Positions 23,318-44,442 of a DNA stretch of 44,497 nucleotides are shown here, piece after piece. The translations under genes were made by a program, and so were the position numbers. The notes below the pieces were generated by a model, which was given only the letters and a program-made list of their open reading frames with translations, did no database searches and was not told the DNA's origin. The stretch's first letter is position 1. Every line of letters starts with the position of its first letter. This DNA comes from Bacillota bacterium (GTDB taxonomy: Bacteria; Bacillota; SHA-98; UBA4971), in contig JASEJE010000005.1 of assembly GCA_030024085.1 (NCBI GenBank), forward strand, positions 72,735 to 117,231, in the 5' to 3' direction.

Positions 23318-24118
23318 CTACCGGCCTCCGCCCGGCGCCGCCTTCACGGCCGCGAGGAACTCGAGCGACTGCAACTTACGGTCAAGCCTGTAGTCGAGGT
23401 GCGCCCTCATGGCCCTCTCCATCTCGGACCTCGCGCCCGGGCCCGCCCCAAGCCGCGAAATGCGCTCGAAATCCAGGTCAGAAAGCCTCTTCAGGAGCTC
23501 GACCGTGCCGCGCGAGAGCCGTACGGCGCCTGGACTGCGACCAAGACAACCTGCGCAAACGAGCCCGCCCGCCTCGGGATCGAATCCCACCTCGCCGCCG
23601 CGGTCGGCTGCGCCGCAACGCGCGCATGAATCGAGCACAGGCCTGTATCCGAGGATGGATGCAAGCTTTATCTCGAAGGCGCGCGTGGTCATCTCGGGGT
23701 CTCGCCCCCCGGACAGGGCGTGAAGGTACGAAAGCAGAAGACCGAAGACCTCCCCGCTCCCCTGCCCCCCTTCGTCCCCCTGGCCGGCCTCGCCTCCTGC
23801 GCCCTCCTCCACCATCGCATCGAGGAGTTCCACGGCGTAGCTGGCGAATGCCAGCTTCGTGAGGTCATCGTGGAGTCGGGGGAAGGACGTTTTCACCTCG
23901 ACCTGGCTTATGCTGTCAAGGGACTTGCCCGAGAACACCAGAAAGTCGGCGTGAGCGAACATCTGCGTGGCGCTCACGAACCTGCTCCGGGGTCTCCTGG
24001 CGCCGCGCGCCACCGCCCGCACCTTGCCCTTCGCAGGCGAGAAAAGCGTGACGATCCTGTCAGCCTCGCCGAGATTCCTGGTCTTGAGGACGATCCCCTC
24101 AGTCCTGTAGAGCGCCAC
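23318..24118 (-). CDS. recO: DNA repair protein RecO
   Basis: RecFOR pathway mediator that anneals ssDNA and helps load RecA. About 266 residues: N-terminal OB-fold (YRTEGIVLKTRNLGEADRIV), helical core, and a four-Cys zinc site (CARCGAA and CAGC). A Gly/Glu-rich low-complexity insert (EGAGGEAGQGDEGGQGSGE) interrupts the helical core. GTG 24118 has GGAGGTAG 7 bases upstream; the longer frame upstream is proline/arginine-rich shadow. Confidence 0.95.
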   Translation of the reverse strand: MALYRTEGIVLKTRNLGEADRIVTLFSPAKGKVRAVARGARRPRSRFVSATQMFAHADFLVFSGKSLDSISQVEVKTSFPRLHDDLTKLAFASYAVELLDAMVEEGAGGEAGQGDEGGQGSGEVFGLLLSYLHALSGGRDPEMTTRAFEIKLASILGYRPVLDSCARCGAADRGGEVGFDPEAGGLVCAGCLGRSPGAVRLSRGTVELLKRLSDLDFERISRLGAGPGARSEMERAMRAHLDYRLDRKLQSLEFLAAVKAAPGGGR

Positions 24119-36087: not shown

Positions 36088-38478
36088 CTAGTCCGCGCGA
36101 ATGGCGACGACGGTGACGCCGTCCCCACCCTCGGCGGGTCCCCCTGGCTCGAAGCCCCTGACGTGCGGATGGCTCCGGACGAACTCACGAACGGCCTGCC
36201 TGAGCGCGCCTGTCCCCTTTCCGTGGATGATCCTGGCCCTGGGTAGCCCCGCAAGGCATGCATCGTCGAGGTATTTGTCCACCTCCGCGAGGGCCTCTTC
36301 GACGGTCAGCCCGCGCAGGTCCAGCTCGCTCGACACAGTGGTTGCCTTCTCGCGGGCAACCGGTGCGATGAACACGCCGCCGAAAGGCGACTCGGCCGAA
36401 GGACGCTCCTCTTCGATGACGGCAAGGTCTTTCGGAGACACGAAGAGCCTCATGGCGCCCACCTGCACCTCCACGTCCTCCCCATCCCGCGGCGGGCTCA
36501 CCACGCGTCCGGGCCTGCCCAGCCTCGAAACGTACACGGTTGCCCCAGTCGCAACATCGCCAGAGCCAACGGGCCTTGTGCGTGGCGCGGGCGCCTCCTC
36601 CAGCACCTCGATCCCGACGCCGGAGGTCTCCTCGGCTACCTGCTTCAGCGCCTCCCTCGCCCTGCGCGCCGCATCGTCCACGGCGCTCCTGTCGAACGAG
36701 CCCTGTTTCAGTTCGTCAATGATCCTTGCCACGTCCTGCCTTGCGCGGGACACAATGCGGGACGCTTCGTCCCGGGCCTTCCGGAGGATGTCCGAGCGTG
36801 CCTCGCGAAGCCGGCGGGCCTCCTCGTCACGCTCGCGAACAAGCCTCTCCATCGTCTGCCTCGCCCCACGCGCCCGCTCCCTGTCCTCCTCGAGCTCCCT
36901 GCGGCTTCGCTCCATCCCGGCGATCATGTCCTCCACCCGAACCCGGTCCTCTCCGAGCCGGGCGCGGGCGGCATCCACGATCTGCCGAGGCAAGCCGAGA
37001 CGTGATGCAACCTCAAACGCACAGGAACTTCCCGGGACGCCCACGATGAGGCGGTAGGTCGGCCGAAGTGTCGCCACGTCGAATTCACATGACGCGTTCT
37101 CAACGCCGTCGTGCTCGTAGGCAAACGTCTTGAGCTCGCTGTAGTGGGTGGTCGCCACCGTGCGTGACCCGCGCGCGTGCAGGTGTTCGAGAATGGCTAT
37201 CCCGAGGGAAGCCCCTTCGGCGGGGTCGGTGCCCGCGCCGAGTTCGTCGAGAAGCACGAGCGACTCCGGCCCGGTCTCTTCCAGAATCCGCACGATGTGC
37301 GTCATGTGCGATGAGAAAGTCGACAGGCTCTGCTCAATGCTCTGCTCGTCACCGATGTCCGCGAATACCTGCTGGAAAACTGCAAACCTCGTGCCGCTCG
37401 CCGCAGGGAGGTGCAGCCCCGCCAGGGTCATGAGGGCGAAGATGCCAATCGTCTTGAGAGAAACCGTCTTGCCGCCCGTGTTGGGCCCGGTCACCACCAG
37501 CGTGCGAAACTCGCCGCCAAGCTCGACGTCTATCGGGACGACGCGCCCCGACAGAAGCGGGTGCCTCCCCTGCCGGATCTCGAGGTAGCCGGAGGTGTTG
37601 AGATCAGGCTCCACGGCGTCCATGTCCAGGCTGAGCCTGCCCTTGGCGAAGGCGAAGTCCAGGGCGGCGAGGGCCTCGACTGTTCCCTGGATCTCCGGGT
37701 GTGCCGCCCGCACGAGCCCGGAGAGGTGACGGAGGATCCTCTCCACCTCCTCGCGCTCCTTCGCCTCGAGAGACGCAAGCTCGTTGTTGAGTTCGACCAC
37801 GGCCATCGGCTCGACGAAGAGAGTGAGGCCGCTGGACGACTGGTCGTGGACTATCCCCGGCACCGCAGCGCGGTGCTCCTGCTTCACGGGCACCACGAAC
37901 CGGCCGCCGCGCAGGGTGACCACGGGGTCTTGCAGATAGCGCGAGGCCTCCGGGGATCGGATGAGCGAGTCCAGCCTGTCGCGGATGCGACCGTTCACAG
38001 CGCGGATGTCCGACCTCAGCCTGGCGAGGACCGGGCTCGCCTCGTCCATCACGTTGCCCTGGTCGTCGAGGCACCGGGCGATCTCCCTCACAAGGGCAGG
38101 CTGCGGCGCGATCCTGGAGGCATGCGCGCGGATGGTGCCGAAGCCCTCGCCCAGCCCGAAGACGAACTTGCGAAGGCGCGCGGATGCGTCCATCGTCCAC
38201 GAGACATCGAGGAGGTCCTGGGGCGCCAGAGTGGCTCCCACCCTCGCCTGGGCCACAGCGCGGCGGATATCGCGGATCCCGCCGAGCGGCACCGACGGAC
38301 AGTTCTCGAGTATCGCCCTGGCCTCCGTGGTCTCGCGCTGCCTCGCGCGGACCTCGTCAGGGTCGGTGACGACGTCGAGGGCAAGCGCAAGCTCCCGGCC
38401 CAGGCTGTTCGTGGTCGCCGCCGCCAGGCGCTCCTTAATCTTATGGAATTCCAGGACACGCAGGGTCCTCTCGTCCAA
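36088..38478 (-). CDS. mutS2: Endonuclease/ATPase MutS2 with Smr domain
   Basis: 796 residues, usual length. Walker A in VVTGPNTGGKTVSLKTIG, Walker B LVLLDELGAGTDPAEGASLG, coiled-coil about residues 510-620, KOW-like region, and a C-terminal Smr domain (ELDLRGLTVEEALAEVDKYL and ARIIHGKGTGALRQAVREF). MutS2 is linked to suppression of recombination and, in B. subtilis, to rescue of collided ribosomes. TTG start 38478 with GGAGGGATGGCAG directly before it. Confidence 0.96.
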   Translation of the reverse strand: MDERTLRVLEFHKIKERLAAATTNSLGRELALALDVVTDPDEVRARQRETTEARAILENCPSVPLGGIRDIRRAVAQARVGATLAPQDLLDVSWTMDASARLRKFVFGLGEGFGTIRAHASRIAPQPALVREIARCLDDQGNVMDEASPVLARLRSDIRAVNGRIRDRLDSLIRSPEASRYLQDPVVTLRGGRFVVPVKQEHRAAVPGIVHDQSSSGLTLFVEPMAVVELNNELASLEAKEREEVERILRHLSGLVRAAHPEIQGTVEALAALDFAFAKGRLSLDMDAVEPDLNTSGYLEIRQGRHPLLSGRVVPIDVELGGEFRTLVVTGPNTGGKTVSLKTIGIFALMTLAGLHLPAASGTRFAVFQQVFADIGDEQSIEQSLSTFSSHMTHIVRILEETGPESLVLLDELGAGTDPAEGASLGIAILEHLHARGSRTVATTHYSELKTFAYEHDGVENASCEFDVATLRPTYRLIVGVPGSSCAFEVASRLGLPRQIVDAARARLGEDRVRVEDMIAGMERSRRELEEDRERARGARQTMERLVRERDEEARRLREARSDILRKARDEASRIVSRARQDVARIIDELKQGSFDRSAVDDAARRAREALKQVAEETSGVGIEVLEEAPAPRTRPVGSGDVATGATVYVSRLGRPGRVVSPPRDGEDVEVQVGAMRLFVSPKDLAVIEEERPSAESPFGGVFIAPVAREKATTVSSELDLRGLTVEEALAEVDKYLDDACLAGLPRARIIHGKGTGALRQAVREFVRSHPHVRGFEPGGPAEGGDGVTVVAIRAD

Positions 38479-38540
38479 CTGCCATCCCTCCGGCGGATCG
38501 GAGGCGCCTTGCGGCTTTGGCCTCCGGGCCGCCAGCCACC

Positions 38541-38546
38541 ATTATA
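38541..38546 (-). promoter_or_regulatory. Extended -10 promoter of mutS2
   Basis: Minus strand TGTGGTATAAT, TATAAT at 38546-38541, 62 bases before the mutS2 start. The -35 is weak (GCGTGA region). Confidence 0.55.
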
Positions 38547-38559
38547 CCACATGCCGGTA

Positions 38560-38786
38560 TGGATCACGCCTCCGCCGGGGCATGAATGTGTGAGGCTGAT
38601 GTACGTCGTGTCATGCATGCAAGGGAAAGGATGACGCGCGTCACTCGTCAGGCTCTTCCGGTTCCGTACATCACGGGTTTCCTGGGAACTGCACGGTCGA
38701 GAGCCACCGGGGCCGGGAGTCGTCCCACCAGACACTCCCGCCAGGCCCGGCAAACCGGATGACATCCCGTATCTGACAAAGTGGTA
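38560..38786. other. Intergenic region between mutS2 and the Rad52-like gene
   Basis: About 225 bases with no recognised gene or structure. Confidence 0.3.
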
Positions 38787-39386
38787 TTAGTGTGCAGGTG
38801 GCCGCTCGACAGGCTCGGGCGCACCCTCGGGCCCGCCGCCGATCCCCCCGGCATCAGCCCGTCCCAGGATGTCGCGGGCGGCCTTTCGCACGGCCTCGTC
38901 GCGTGCGTTCTCGGCAAGCCATCCCACGTAGGCCGGATCCTGCCGGACCACGGTTCCCAGGGGCTTCCTCGCATACTTGCCGAACGTGAGGACGAGGTCA
39001 TCGGGGTTCTCGGGCCCCGGGACCTCATCCAGCGGCAGCACGTCACCCAGCTCCTCGAGGGCCACGAGATCGATGCCCACCGCGTCCCTCATGGCCCGCG
39101 CCTTGGCGCGCGTCGCGGCCATCCGGAGGATGTGCGGCTGGATCGCCCTGTTCACGCTCTCCGGCGAGGCGTCGCCGACCTCCTTGAATAGCCCGTTCTC
39201 GATCTCGATCTCGGCTTCGACCACAGCGTACATGCCATTGTCAGGCGACGGGATCTGGACTATGTTCGTGGTGATACGCTTGAGCCCGTGCTGACGGGCG
39301 AGTTGAAGGAGGCCGCCATACAGAACGTAGTCCTTGCCCTGAAGCGTCTTGACGAATCTCTCCCGGAACTCCCTTGGAAGATCCAT
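38787..39386 (-). CDS. Rad52/DdrA-like domain fused to ExoX-like C-terminal domain
   Basis: 199 residues. The N-terminal part resembles Rad52-superfamily single-strand annealing or DdrA-type proteins: GKDYVLYGGLLQLARQHG, then a strand pair with VVEAEIEIENGLFKEVGDAS, and HILRMAATRAKARAMRDAVG, a helix typical of that superfamily. After about residue 135, LTFGKYARKPLGTVVRQDPA and YVGWLAENA match the small domain found at the C-terminus of exonuclease X and in other nucleases. ATG 39386 has AGGTGGGG 8-9 bases upstream. No phage genes are near, so it appears to be a chromosomal repair gene. Assignment is by motif recall and needs a profile search. Confidence 0.6.
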   Translation of the reverse strand: MDLPREFRERFVKTLQGKDYVLYGGLLQLARQHGLKRITTNIVQIPSPDNGMYAVVEAEIEIENGLFKEVGDASPESVNRAIQPHILRMAATRAKARAMRDAVGIDLVALEELGDVLPLDEVPGPENPDDLVLTFGKYARKPLGTVVRQDPAYVGWLAENARDEAVRKAARDILGRADAGGIGGGPEGAPEPVERPPAH

Positions 39387-39443
39387 GGAACCATCCCCAC
39401 CTACTTGCCAGATTCGGATCTGTCGGACGCCTTGCGAGATGCC

Positions 39444-40181
39444 TCATCGCTCATCGGACGTCTGGTCAGATTCGTGCCGCACCTTCGATTGAAGATCTCG
39501 CACCTCCGCGCTCTCTTTCTTTGCAACGTACAGCTCGCCCGCGGTATCGAGTGTCGCCAGGAGTGCGTCAGACGGGTCCTTCACGCCTTTCTTCTCAAGC
39601 TCCTCCTTGAGCCACGCAACGGTCAGGCCAAGCTGATCCAGGTGGTGGTAGTGGACCCTGCCGTCGGTGATGAGCGGGTAAGGTAACCCCTCGTACGCGG
39701 TGGTGATCCCGAGATCCCGCGGGGTCACCGGCCGGGCCTGGGACTTCATGATGACGCTGAGGCGCCCTGATCCCTCAAGGATCGCAAACTCCACGTCCTG
39801 GATGTTCGACACGTTCTTTTCGCGCAGACCTGCCAGGAGGTCATCCAGGTTGTAGCGGAGTTCGCGCAGATTGCCCTCGAGGATATGGCCGTCGCGGATG
39901 ACGATGGTGGACTGCCCGCTGATGACGGCCCTTGCTTTGTCGCTCCTGAGCGTTATGTATGCGAAGAGCACCTCCGTCGCGGCCAGCACGATGATAGGGA
40001 CGACCGCATCGTGTATGTGAATGCGTTTCTCTTCGAGAGGCATTGCAGCAAGGTCCGCTATCATGATGGCCACAACCAGGTCGAACGGTGAGAGCTGGCC
40101 GATCTCCCGCTTACCCATGAGTCGCGTGATGAAGAGGACGAAAACATACATGAATGCGGTCTTGCCGATGGTGGAAAGCAC
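39444..40181 (-). CDS. YetF-like DUF421 membrane protein
   Basis: About 245 residues. Three membrane spans (GKTAFMYVFVLFITRLMG, LVVAIMIADLAAMPL, AVVPIIVLAATEVLFAYITL) are followed by two small cytoplasmic domains with the DUF421 features KRIHIHDAVVPI, SGQSTIVIRDGHILEGNLRE, RYNLDDLLAGLREKNVSNIQ and VEFAILEGSGRLSVI. GTG 40181 is proposed from the alignment; no strong ribosome site is visible. Family members are spore or membrane proteins of unclear function. Downstream, 57 bases away, lies the Rad52-like gene. Confidence 0.88.
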   Translation of the reverse strand: MLSTIGKTAFMYVFVLFITRLMGKREIGQLSPFDLVVAIMIADLAAMPLEEKRIHIHDAVVPIIVLAATEVLFAYITLRSDKARAVISGQSTIVIRDGHILEGNLRELRYNLDDLLAGLREKNVSNIQDVEFAILEGSGRLSVIMKSQARPVTPRDLGITTAYEGLPYPLITDGRVHYHHLDQLGLTVAWLKEELEKKGVKDPSDALLATLDTAGELYVAKKESAEVRDLQSKVRHESDQTSDER

Positions 40182-40492
40182 TCGAGGACCAGCCCTTTCT
40201 CGTGCGTCAACCCATGAACCCGGAAACGCTGCCGTCTCCGGGGTTCGCGCGGCGCTGCCCCGCGGTTGCGGCATGGGACGAAACGTCGATGAGACAACCC
40301 CAGCCAGAGATGTAGTATGGTCCCGGCCGGGCAACGCTATTCCAGCCAGCGTGGCCTGGCCGGTATACAGCCGGAGCGCCGTGTCCACACTATGTACCGC
40401 TTGCCAGGTGGCCATGGGCGAAGCCCCGAGCACGAGGCCCGCGCCAGGGCGCGCTGGACAAGGCGAAAACATGGGACCAGGGAGATGATAGC
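40182..40492. other. Divergent intergenic region
   Basis: About 310 bases between the YetF-like and polyprenyl synthase genes. Contains TAGTATGG near 40314 but no hexamer pair I can defend. Confidence 0.3.
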
Positions 40493-41500
40493 GTGAGAGG
40501 AGTCCTGGACCTTCCACCGCAACTCGAGGACCGAATCCGGGCGGTGGACCGCATCATCGAGGCGGCTCTCGCCTCAGAGAGCAAATACGTCGCCCGTCCA
40601 AGGGACCACATCCTGGCGACGAGAGGCAAAGGCCTCCGACCGGCCCTCGTCGTTCTGTGGGCGTCGGTAGGGCCAGGCAAGGAGGCATGCCCTCACGTGA
40701 GGCCGGAAGCGGTGGACGACAGGGCCACGATCGAGGTCGCTGCGGCTGCGGAGCTCATCCACATGGCTTCGCTGGTCCACGACGACGTGATCGACGGTTC
40801 GACCACCCGCAGGGGCCTGGAAACCCTGAACGCGCTCTTCGGGGCGCGCCCGTCTGTCCTTCTCGGAGACTTCCTTTTCGCTAAGGCCTTTGGGCTTCTT
40901 GCCCGTCATAGGGACCTGGGCGTCGTCGAACTCATGACGGACGCCATCTCGGCCATGTGCGAGGGCGAGCTGGAGCAGGCAGCGTGCGCGTTCTCGTGCG
41001 ATGAAACGGAAGACGGGTACCTTCGGAGGATCACGCTCAAGACCGCAAGGCTCATATCAGCGTGTTGCCGGGCGGGTGCCGTCATCGCCGGGGCGTCCGC
41101 CGAGGATGTGGCGGACGCCAGCGAGTACGGTCTCGAACTCGGCATCGCGTTCCAGCTCACCGACGATGCCCTCGACTTCGTGGCAGACGAGCGGGAGCTG
41201 GGCAAGCCAACGTGCCAGGACCTGGTGTGCGGCGTCCTCACGCTTCCGGTGCTGAGGCTGCTCACCCATGAGTCCCTTGGCCCCAGAGCACGGGATCTCA
41301 TCGCGTCGAGGCGGTTCGACCCGGAGTCGGTGATGTGGGTGCGCAGCGCCGTGGTGGAGTGCGGAGGGGTGGACCTGACTTACGAGCGTGCGCAGCAGTG
41401 TATCGAACACGCGTCGGCCTGCGCTTCGAGGCTTCCCGCGGGGCCTGCCCGCGACGCCCTTACTGCGCTGACACGACAGGTCATCATCAGGCGACGCTAA
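40493..41500 (+). CDS. Trans-polyprenyl diphosphate synthase (HepT-like)
   Basis: Condenses isopentenyl diphosphate onto an allylic diphosphate to give a C30-C40 chain. 335 residues. First Asp-rich motif HDDVIDGSTTRRG, second TDDALDFVAD; also GKGLRPALVVL and LGDFLFAKAF. GTG 40493 with GGGAG 8 bases before. The Bacillus heptaprenyl synthase works as HepS + HepT; no HepS-like gene is in view. The gene ends 8 bases before the convergent ytpB, whose enzyme uses heptaprenyl diphosphate, so a C35 product is inferred. Chain length cannot be read from sequence with certainty. Confidence 0.88.
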   Translation: MRGVLDLPPQLEDRIRAVDRIIEAALASESKYVARPRDHILATRGKGLRPALVVLWASVGPGKEACPHVRPEAVDDRATIEVAAAAELIHMASLVHDDVIDGSTTRRGLETLNALFGARPSVLLGDFLFAKAFGLLARHRDLGVVELMTDAISAMCEGELEQAACAFSCDETEDGYLRRITLKTARLISACCRAGAVIAGASAEDVADASEYGLELGIAFQLTDDALDFVADERELGKPTCQDLVCGVLTLPVLRLLTHESLGPRARDLIASRRFDPESVMWVRSAVVECGGVDLTYERAQQCIEHASACASRLPAGPARDALTALTRQVIIRRR

Positions 41501-41508
41501 GCCCAGCC

Positions 41509-42609
41509 CTACAGTCTCCCCGTCCGCCGGAGGAGCCGGCACGCCCGCCACATGCTGATCGCATCGGGGCCGGCCCTGTCCAGGAGGAATGCGGCCACAT
41601 CGTCGAGCCCGGCTGCCTGAACCTTCGGGTCAGAAAGGTAAAGGGCGGCGATCCCCTTCACGACTCCCTGGTGGAACGATCGGCCCGGAAGGGCGGACGT
41701 GCTCTCGAGCGCTCTCGTCAGGAAATACCCCAGCCGCTCGCGACATTCCCGGGAGTCCCTGTAGAAGCTGACGAAGTTGAGGTCGCCCTCGCGGGCGTCC
41801 TCTTCCTGGTCTATGAAATAGTCCATGAGGATGTGGAGGCCGCACACCCACGGGAAGTACGCGCGTGATACCGTCCCAGCCGCCTCGGGACTGCGGTCCC
41901 CCTGCGCGGCAAGGTTCAGAAGCGAGAAGATCCCGAGGGTGGAACCGCAGGCAGCTGCGAACTCCCACCAGGCGAGGTCGGCGCGCCAGCCGGCGCCCTC
42001 GCGAGCAAACCAGTCCGCGAGAAGCGGCACCCTCTCTTCCCTGCGGACGTGCTTGTAGACCTGAAGGTCGCGGTACAGTCCCGCGAGTCGAAGCACCTCG
42101 CCCTCTATAGCCGCATGATACGCGGGAAGGCGTGCCACCCGATGTCTACACTCGTGCACCAGCGACCGGAGGTAACCGCCATCAGCCCTGTGGGGATATA
42201 GCGCGTAGTAGTCCCGTCCGCCGGCGTCACCGAGCGGAGTGGCTAGCGAGGTCACGGCATCGAGCATGGCCTGGTGCAGCCTGCAAAAGGCAGCGCCATC
42301 CTCGACCCCGGCGCGATCGCAGAGGTTATCCAGGTAGTCGCTGATGGTCTGGTAGGCAACTATGAGGGAAACCAGGTTGCCGGAAGGGCGCGGGTCGAGA
42401 CCGAATACCGACCCGCCCACGGCATGGAAACCCTTGTGTCGTATGCTGGAGATCCCCTGCCTGCGAAGCTCCGGATCCGGGCACTTGCGAAGCGCAGCCT
42501 GCCACCTCGCGAGTTCCCGACCCACCCTCGGCGCCACCCACAGGGACATTCCGCCGACAAGCCGTGCGGCGGTCCAGCGGACGCCGTCCTCGTTGTCTTT
42601 GCGCACCAT
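41509..42609 (-). CDS. ytpB: Tetraprenyl-beta-curcumene synthase family protein (YtpB)
   Basis: About 366 residues, DUF2600. In Bacillus YtpB cyclises heptaprenyl diphosphate to tetraprenyl-beta-curcumene, the first step to C35 sesquarterpenes (baciterpenols). Family blocks: SIRHKGFHAVGGSVFGL, VAYQTISDYLDNLCDR with the Asp-rich motif, SLVHECRHRVARLPAY, DLQVYKHVRREERVPLL, CGLHILMDYFIDQEEDAREG and DLNFVSFY. Start uncertain: ATG 42609 or GTG 42618. Convergent with the polyprenyl synthase gene; polX starts upstream on the same strand direction. No squalene-hopene-cyclase homologue is in the window. Confidence 0.9.
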   Translation of the reverse strand: MVRKDNEDGVRWTAARLVGGMSLWVAPRVGRELARWQAALRKCPDPELRRQGISSIRHKGFHAVGGSVFGLDPRPSGNLVSLIVAYQTISDYLDNLCDRAGVEDGAAFCRLHQAMLDAVTSLATPLGDAGGRDYYALYPHRADGGYLRSLVHECRHRVARLPAYHAAIEGEVLRLAGLYRDLQVYKHVRREERVPLLADWFAREGAGWRADLAWWEFAAACGSTLGIFSLLNLAAQGDRSPEAAGTVSRAYFPWVCGLHILMDYFIDQEEDAREGDLNFVSFYRDSRECRERLGYFLTRALESTSALPGRSFHQGVVKGIAALYLSDPKVQAAGLDDVAAFLLDRAGPDAISMWRACRLLRRTGRL

Positions 42610-42652
42610 CGGCCTCACCCGGCCGTAGTGTTGCCACGCTCACGCCTTGCCA

Positions 42653-44383
42653 TTACGTCCGATTACGGCTTCGGGCAAGCCACTTCCGCAGCCGCTCCAG
42701 AGACCATGCGTTTATCACGTGGGACCGCTCGAGCCAGCCACGCCTGGCCACGCCGACGCCGAAGACCATGTAGCCGAGCTGGTCGGAGCTGTGGGAGTCT
42801 GTGTTCACGGCGAGCACCGCGCCTGCATCCTTTGCCTTTCGCGCCCAGCCCGAGTCGAGGTCGAGCCGTTCGGGGTATGCGTTGATCTCCAGCGCAACCT
42901 GGCAGCGCGCGGCCTCTTCGATGACTTTCTGCATGTCCACGTCATAGCCGCTGCGCCTCCCGAGGACCCTCCCCGTAGGATGGCCTATGATATCCACGTT
43001 CCCGTTTCTTATGGCGCGGACGATCCTTTCGGTCATCACATCCCGAGGTTGTCTGAACGACGAGTGCACGGAGGCGACCACCACGTCGAGTCTGGAGAGA
43101 ACCTCATCCGGAAGGTCCAGCGTGCCATCCTTCTTGATGTCAACCTCCGTGCCCGTAAGCACCGTGATGCCATCGAGGTGACGGTTGAGGTCGGCGATGA
43201 ACTCCACCTCCCTCAGGACCTCGTCACCAGTGAGGCCTCCGGCGATGCCGAGCGACTTCGAGTGGTCGCAGATGGCGATGTACTCATACCCATGAGCCTT
43301 CGCCGCGTCCGCCATGGCCTTGATCGAGGACAGGCCGTCGCTGAAGTCGCTGTGTACATGGAGATCGCCGAGGATGTCCCTCTCCTCGACGAGAGCGGGA
43401 AGCCTGCCGTCCATGGCCGCCTCGATCTCGCCCGAATCCTCTCTGATCTCAGGCGGAACGTACTGAAGCCCCAGCGCGGCGTATATATCCTCCTCGGCGT
43501 CCACCGGCAGCTGCGCGCCCGTCCTGCTGAACACGCCGTGCTCGTTTATCTTGAGGCCGCTCTCGCGGGCAATGCCCCGAAGCCTGACATTGTGGGCCTT
43601 CGAGCCTGTGGCATGGTGGAGTGCAGCCACGAACTCCGCAGGGGGGACCACCCAGACATCGACGTTCATCCCGCTGCGAAGGGCGAAGGACGCCCGTTCG
43701 TCACCGATGGTCAGGACCTCGCCGACCTCGTGCCACCCGCTCATGGCCTCCATCACAAGGCCGCCGTTCCGAGTCCCCACCACAATGTCCAGGTCGCCAC
43801 ATGTCTCCTTCCATCTCCGCACGCTTCCCGCTGCGGCTGCCTCGCAGACCTCCTCCACCTGGGCTATCCGGTCGAGGACGGAGCGAGCCCTCATCACTGC
43901 GACCCCCAGCGGGACGCGGGTCCAGTGCTCATCTTGCATCCTCTCTATGGCATGGATGACGTTCTCCTCGGTTTTCGCTCCCATCCCCGGGACGTCTTTG
44001 AGCCTGCCGGCGCGGGCCGCCCTCTCGAGTTCCTCCACGCTGGCAACGCCAAGGTGGCGGAAGACCGCTGCCGCCGTGCGCGGGCCTACCCCAGGGATCC
44101 TCAACATGTCGCGAAGGCCCGGGGGAACCTCCTGCTTCAGTTCCTCGAGAAGCCTGAGCTTTCCGGTGGTCGCGATCTCCACCGTTTTCTTCTCGATGGC
44201 CTCGCCTATCCCCTCGATGTGCTTGAGCCTTCCCTCGGCGGCAAGAGTTGCCGCATCCCCGGGAAGGCTCTCAATCGTGTCTGCCGCGCGCCTGTAGGCG
44301 CGAATCTTGAAGGGGTTCTCGCCCTTCAACTCCAGAAGGTCCGCAAGCTCGCGGAATATGGAGGCTGTCTCCGTGTTGTCCAT
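42653..44383 (-). CDS. polX: DNA polymerase X with PHP exonuclease domain
   Basis: 576 residues. N-terminal HhH regions (FKIRAYRRAADTIESLPGD, HIEGIGEAIEKKTVEIA, IPGVGPRTAAAVFRHLG, DVPGMGAKTEENVI) precede the nucleotidyltransferase palm (GSVRRWKETCGDLDIVVG with two catalytic Asp, and a third in MNVDVWVV). The C-terminal PHP domain, 3'-5' exonuclease, has GDLHVHSDFSDG, ICDHSKSLGIAGG and VVASVHSSF. ATG 44383 with GGAGG 8 bases upstream; the longer frame to 44410 has none. Roles in base excision repair and DNA end processing are known in Bacillus and Thermus. Confidence 0.96.
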   Translation of the reverse strand: MDNTETASIFRELADLLELKGENPFKIRAYRRAADTIESLPGDAATLAAEGRLKHIEGIGEAIEKKTVEIATTGKLRLLEELKQEVPPGLRDMLRIPGVGPRTAAAVFRHLGVASVEELERAARAGRLKDVPGMGAKTEENVIHAIERMQDEHWTRVPLGVAVMRARSVLDRIAQVEEVCEAAAAGSVRRWKETCGDLDIVVGTRNGGLVMEAMSGWHEVGEVLTIGDERASFALRSGMNVDVWVVPPAEFVAALHHATGSKAHNVRLRGIARESGLKINEHGVFSRTGAQLPVDAEEDIYAALGLQYVPPEIREDSGEIEAAMDGRLPALVEERDILGDLHVHSDFSDGLSSIKAMADAAKAHGYEYIAICDHSKSLGIAGGLTGDEVLREVEFIADLNRHLDGITVLTGTEVDIKKDGTLDLPDEVLSRLDVVVASVHSSFRQPRDVMTERIVRAIRNGNVDIIGHPTGRVLGRRSGYDVDMQKVIEEAARCQVALEINAYPERLDLDSGWARKAKDAGAVLAVNTDSHSSDQLGYMVFGVGVARRGWLERSHVINAWSLERLRKWLARSRNRT

Positions 44384-44442
44384 GGCCACACCTCCGCCCC
44401 CGCTCCCCACTTCCCGCCTGGCGCTGCCAGGTCCGCACGCCT

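Follow-up and report, generated by a model that had tools for sequence, protein, structure and literature searches.

The gene at positions 38787-39386 of the window (the whole stretch of 44,497 nucleotides that was analysed) probably encodes a protein of the single-strand-annealing type from the Rad52/Redβ/Sak superfamily, now a resident repair gene of a spore-forming group of Bacillota; we give this reading, which leans on structure prediction, a probability of roughly 0.68. The features concerned are the following:

38787-39386, minus strand: gene of the Rad52-like protein with ExoX_C tail (ORF with ATG start, 199 amino acids; the stop codon is within the coordinates)
39057-39386, minus strand: N-terminal putative annealing-type core, residues 1-110 (AlphaFold2 model; structural matches to RAD52, Sak, Mgm101 and Redβ)
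38907-38990, minus strand: ExoX-like_C domain (PF20600), residues 133-160 (Pfam match)
36088-38478, minus strand: MutS2, the next gene downstream (Pfam MutS_V, Smr, MSSS)
39444-40517, minus strand: DUF421 (YetF-like) protein, the next gene upstream (PF04239; ORF start uncertain)
42653-44410, minus strand: PolX, a PHP-domain polymerase of the X family, 3.3 kb from the gene (Pfam thumb, HHH_8, HHH_5, PHP)

The open reading frame is a genuine protein-coding gene. It is present as a single copy in the window genome, and all 17 genomes sampled from its class have a homologue, those of the 16 other genomes being 66-89% identical across 175-199 residues. Differences to six relatives at codon positions 1/2/3 ranged from 11/14/65 to 49/27/104, and such third-position-biased change is what a protein under selection would show. 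A promoter and terminator scan of positions 38300-39600 found none on the minus strand, the strand of the gene.

The preliminary description had placed the gene between mutS2 and a DUF421 gene and outside any phage context, and at this locus it was right: both neighbours were confirmed by Pfam, and the six neighbouring genes scanned include no phage genes and no defence genes. Beyond DUF421 follow a polyprenyl synthetase (plus strand), a DUF2600 protein (minus strand) and PolX (minus strand); the first two, at 40493-42618, overlap the start region of the DUF421 ORF and are possibly a terpenoid pair. The recO gene is on the minus strand at 23351-24106, about 15 kb from the gene. DUF421 adjoins 23 of the 28 chromosomal copies and the short flank holds PolX and/or MutS2 at 22 of the 28, with PolX being nearer to the gene in many relatives than in the window. 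None of the three genes was found within about 13 kb of two copies from family f3, nor in the short flank of the copy of genome G027, and one of the 28 copies sits at a contig end.

An AlphaFold2 model of the protein was built from 60 aligned sequences: residues 1-110 have a mean pLDDT above 90 in every ten-residue block, while the confidence for the C-terminal tail is low to moderate. The predicted core consists, in this order, of two short strands that form a beta-hairpin, a helix, three long strands that form a sheet, and a long helix. Comparison of this fold with Rad52 and Redβ had been proposed as a check and came out in favour: the best match among solved structures (VIA-align) is human RAD52 (Z 8.2, 100 residues, 3.5 Å), and Sak (Z 7.2), Mgm101 (Z 6.7) and Redβ (Z 6.3) also match, with alignments that run from residue 1 to 108, 120 and 106, respectively. 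Identity to these four proteins is 9-16% among the matches listed. The modelled core is consistent with the core fold of the Rad52/Redβ annealase superfamily at Z values that are middling, 8.2 at best, and a Z near 8 to RAD52 may reflect merely a common arrangement. Among predicted viral structures, 53 match the core at E 0.001 or better; the named recombination proteins among these include RecT, Erf, Sak3, Bet and Rad52/59/22, and many of the 53 are unnamed or uncharacterised. G25, D72, R88, T92, R93 and R97 are unchanged in all 60 aligned sequences; the last four sit in the long helix, and RAD52 presumably carries DNA-contacting basic residues in the corresponding helix.

Sequence comparison gave a different picture. 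A Pfam scan of the protein (to E 10) returned no Rad52_Rad22 (PF04098) match and no significant Rad52, Erf or RecT match. Membership in the Rad52_Rad22/DdrA sequence family was rejected for the entire window genome, with zero matches to PF04098 and positive controls in Thermus and Deinobacterium; the family was found in one of 299 phylum genomes, which is not the window genome. Within the 60 aligned members PF04098 matches a single one, a distant phage relative (1.8e-4) that is absent from the ten relatives rescanned in Pfam, and an Erf-like PHROG also matches one of the 60 (5.5e-5). A search for solved structures by sequence gave nothing convincing, and the profile of the 60 members matched none. 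The N-terminus, previously called Rad52/DdrA-like, is thus Rad52-type by predicted fold (residues 1-110) but does not belong to the DdrA/Rad52 sequence family. With RAD52, phage 80a Sak, yeast Mgm101 and lambda Redβ it has the predicted core topology in common (residues 1-106/120), but there is no significant sequence match and their C-termini are unlike that of the window protein. Deinococcus DdrA is likewise a bacterial chromosomal Rad52-type protein, but the window gene differs from it in the missing PF04098 match, the ExoX_C tail and the host group.

ExoX-like_C (PF20600, residues 133-160) is the sole Pfam domain of the protein. The ExoX-type C-terminal domain noticed earlier was confirmed: scanned singly, the protein scores 23.5 bits (E 3.6e-5), under the curated cut-off of 26.5, but the whole-genome scan gave 26.6 bits at the same place, and orthologues reach up to 42.5 bits. 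The domain is the likeness to exonuclease X; unlike exonuclease X, the window protein has no DnaQ-type exonuclease domain that Pfam detects. The NCBIfam ExoX model gives 17.2 bits versus a cut-off of 202 and matches residues 132-170 only, with positions 173-213 of its 220, and with the DnaQ domain missing too, an identity as exonuclease X was rejected. E. coli ExoX truncated to residues 1-167 is reported to remain active (PMC3753628) and the matched region corresponds to model positions 173-213, so that the tail is unlikely to be catalytic. By PHROGs, the protein divides in a similar way: phrog_22961 (function unknown) matches residues 9-115 and phrog_10048 residues 125-174.

To judge from sequence matches, the wider family of the window protein is largely one of phages. 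Seven records of annotated phages match, two over the N-terminal domain and the other five over the tail region only. A single-sequence scan of viral contigs found zero relatives; alignment scans found 20 loci and then 98 (80 kept), some of them in both. As phrog_22961 moreover matches 54 of the 60 aligned members, the window protein included, the non-phage context holds for the window locus but not for the wider family, which consists mainly of phage proteins. From the viral loci of both alignment scans a set of 55 rows (A4) was assembled, leaving out fragments, near-duplicates, rows with a broken frame or with no ATG close to the match, and some of the weaker relatives. An SSB-like acidic tip was considered as a common ending of the phage members and rejected, being present in only three of these 55; L070, L126 and L137 have such a C-terminal tip, ending in PF.

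Relatives are found in phage recombination modules, as is a feature of the superfamily: API480_49 of a Paenibacillus phage is flanked by a gene for a Gam-like inhibitor, annotated 'host-nuclease inhibitor protein', and by an SSB gene. Gp34 of the Rossellomorea phage phiT1 is annotated 'DNA repair and recombination protein'. Of 213 ORFs that neighbour relatives, 142 were scanned, with a few examples each of UvrD-type helicases, DnaB helicases, DnaD-like loaders and Gam-like proteins among them. Annealing is the usual function of such proteins in phage replication and recombination modules. These phrog_22961 phage proteins, phiT1 gp34 and API480_49 among them, resemble the window protein in its N-terminal domain, but the viral and plasmid copies examined have no ExoX_C, unlike the chromosomal copies: Pfam finds ExoX_C in five of the 60 aligned members, in agreement with its FGK motif, which in that alignment is confined to the five chromosomal rows. 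Plasmids gave four matching records; on a plasmid of Rubrobacter marinus, a tail-less relative (L246:4001-4672) lies one gene from ruvC.

The protein could instead be an end-protection factor, one that caps single-stranded ends against nucleases in a DdrA-like manner and does no annealing itself. The Rad52-related DdrA was characterised within an end-protection system (PMC515370), and a tail common to an exonuclease would fit binding at ends. However, the window protein stands outside the DdrA sequence family and its phage relatives sit in replication and recombination modules, and we regard this explanation as unlikely.

Chromosomal copies of the gene are present in 27 of 398 phylum genomes, belonging to eight families; the phylum scan gave 28 matches, but the one in G204 is a phrog_10048 protein, and this genome was accordingly placed among the non-carriers. 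In the class of G092, eight of 12 genomes have the gene, and it is missing from three genomes that belong to family f38 and from one that is 72% complete. When a tree was constructed from the N-terminal domains (119 columns; 57 viral rows, 6 extra copies and 23 of the 28 chromosomal rows), 22 of the 23 chromosomal copies formed one clade (SH-aLRT 93), which is joined by the six extra copies of G001, G004 and G014 (SH-aLRT 97). The copy of G042 (48% identical) falls outside the clade of the 22 others in a placement without support; it has ExoX_C, adjoins PolX and may be a separate acquisition. The extra copies (L037, L038 and L039 in G001, L041 in G014, L040 in G004) have a cysteine-rich tail instead of ExoX_C. 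In G001 they lie in a repeated cassette that also encodes RadC, a UvrD-type helicase, an ArdC-like anti-restriction protein and several products that Pfam does not match; the cassette resembles a mobile element, possibly a multi-copy one. The extra copy of G004 has a phage-type integrase at a distance of about 8 kb.

Such cassettes, and the largely viral wider family, would suit a domesticated phage protein that serves anti-phage defence or gene exchange, as decoy, competitor or DNA-uptake partner, rather than chromosome repair. The class-wide presence, the stable site by repair genes in many carriers and the absence of defence genes among the six scanned neighbours argue against such a use, which we consider very unlikely for the window gene.

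Double-stranded RNA-binding domains are the other group of structures that match the core: they reach up to Z 7.7 in VIA-align, mostly about residues 20-105, and in Foldseek, which by itself is weak, one of them takes rank 1 (2.4e-3) and RAD52 rank 2 (4.6e-3). The helix-three-strands-helix core could therefore be a dsRNA-binding fold, of a protein that works with MutS2 at ribosomes; MutS2 has a role at the ribosome and adjoins the gene. However, the matches to RAD52, Sak, Mgm101 and Redβ are longer (94-104 aligned residues, covering 1-106/120, versus mostly 63-82) and the phage relatives lie beside SSB and Gam-like genes, so that an RNA-binding protein is highly improbable. That the gene is a functionless, decaying prophage remnant is barely credible even with a largely viral wider family, being contradicted by its conservation in 17 of 17 class genomes with third-position bias, by the single clade of 22 of 23 chromosomal copies and by the absence of phage neighbours by Pfam.

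Ku was found in none of the 27 carriers but in 235 of the 371 non-carriers (398 phylum genomes) and, in a smaller set of 45 genomes, in none of 27 carriers versus 16 of 18 others; G010 carries the gene and is absent from the Ku sample. At the family level, Ku genomes occur in 86 of 140 families sampled and in none of the eight carrier families. By raw count, with relatives treated as independent, the chance of zero overlap between the gene and Ku comes to 8.6e-12 when genomes are counted and to 3.5e-4 when families are. On a UvrB tree of 59 out of 62 genomes (left out were G056 and G057, with weak matches only, and G031, which has Ku and a short fragment), carriers need five changes, and independent pairs gave on average 0 contrasts in the same direction, 1.8 in the opposite direction and 2.2 without difference (median p 0.5, with few contrasts). 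Ku is missing also in 136 of the 371 non-carriers and its absence does thus not require the gene. The lack of Ku in all carrier genomes tested is a new and suggestive observation, for which correction for descent leaves too few independent contrasts to reach a decision.

Other profiles were less informative. The proposed profile with recO failed to give any contrast, RecO being found in 44 of 45 genomes; the only miss is the carrier G011, a draft of about 310 contigs. AddA (TIGR02785) has matches in 45 of 45 genomes, above cut-off in 25, and the profile was dropped: the weak matches resemble other helicases of the superfamily. The attribution to spore formers agrees with Spo0A, which is above cut-off in 42 of the 45 genomes.

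Fold and phage setting point to RecA-independent single-strand binding and pairing; an annealing activity of the window protein and a replacement of Ku by it are inferences. The core would assemble on resected single strands and, independently of RecA, pair complementary stretches or tether ends; the ExoX_C tail may be a non-catalytic docking module that brings the protein to DNA ends or to a partner, and PolX, encoded nearby in many carriers, would fill the remaining gaps. The main use might be the repair of breaks without a sister chromosome, for example in the germinating spore. In B. subtilis, Ku and LigD serve stationary phase and spore germination (PMC3656841); by analogy, an annealing protein near PolX in Ku-lacking spore formers could meet the same need. 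A more specific version is doubtful: a Ku-independent end joining of endospore formers, in which a captured phage-type annealing protein with an ExoX_C docking tail has replaced Ku and pairs short homologies for fill-in by PolX, and in which ExoX_C recurs as a tag on annealing proteins of both hosts and phages. Because spore formers that lack Ku have a chromosomal form that is inherited vertically and has a tail of its own, it becomes testable how double-strand breaks are repaired in Ku-less spores with a single chromosome copy.

For DdrA, a distant but specific relation to Rad52 has been described and acquisition from a phage was thought possible (PMC515370). A structural survey of annealases distinguishes five families (Rad52, Redβ, RecT, Erf and Sak3), with 90% of the superfamily members being bacterial or phage proteins, counted together; DdrA is not named in it (PMC11783212). 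A survey of Firmicutes annealing proteins mentions neither DdrA nor ExoX (PMC8093625). In the open-access literature, by title or start of abstract, we found no description of a Rad52-like protein of this kind that is ExoX-like, MutS2/PolX-linked or sporulation-linked.

ExoX_C occurs at 25 places in 299 phylum genomes, of which 22 are the Rad52-like gene and three are other proteins: two of phrog_10048 and one, L185, of a different kind. L185:1150-2217 encodes 356 amino acids with ExoX_C, and its N-terminus resembles hypothetical proteins in three phage records, of which two are from Campylobacter phages. The phrog_10048 proteins (function unknown; L165:946-1788, L184:727-1941 and L247-L253) have ExoX_C in most cases. 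A model of a phage phrog_10048 protein, built from six sequences with moderate confidence (mean pLDDT 64), has its best match in RAD52 (Z 9.1, 87 residues, 2.4 Å), with dsRNA-binding domains reaching Z 8.1. These proteins share with the window protein ExoX_C and a RAD52-like predicted core but differ in N-terminal sequence, and they are candidates for a second annealing-protein family. As the models of both families are RAD52-like, ExoX_C would be present on at least two families with RAD52-like predicted cores, and a domain reported to be dispensable for ExoX activity (PMC3753628) gains new settings in which to study its role. In Geobacillus virus E2 and Parageobacillus phage NIIg3.2, the phrog_10048 gene comes after a Gp157-like gene and before replication genes. 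An SSB-like acidic tip with PF at its end is present in four phrog_10048 members (L247, L249, L251 and L252).
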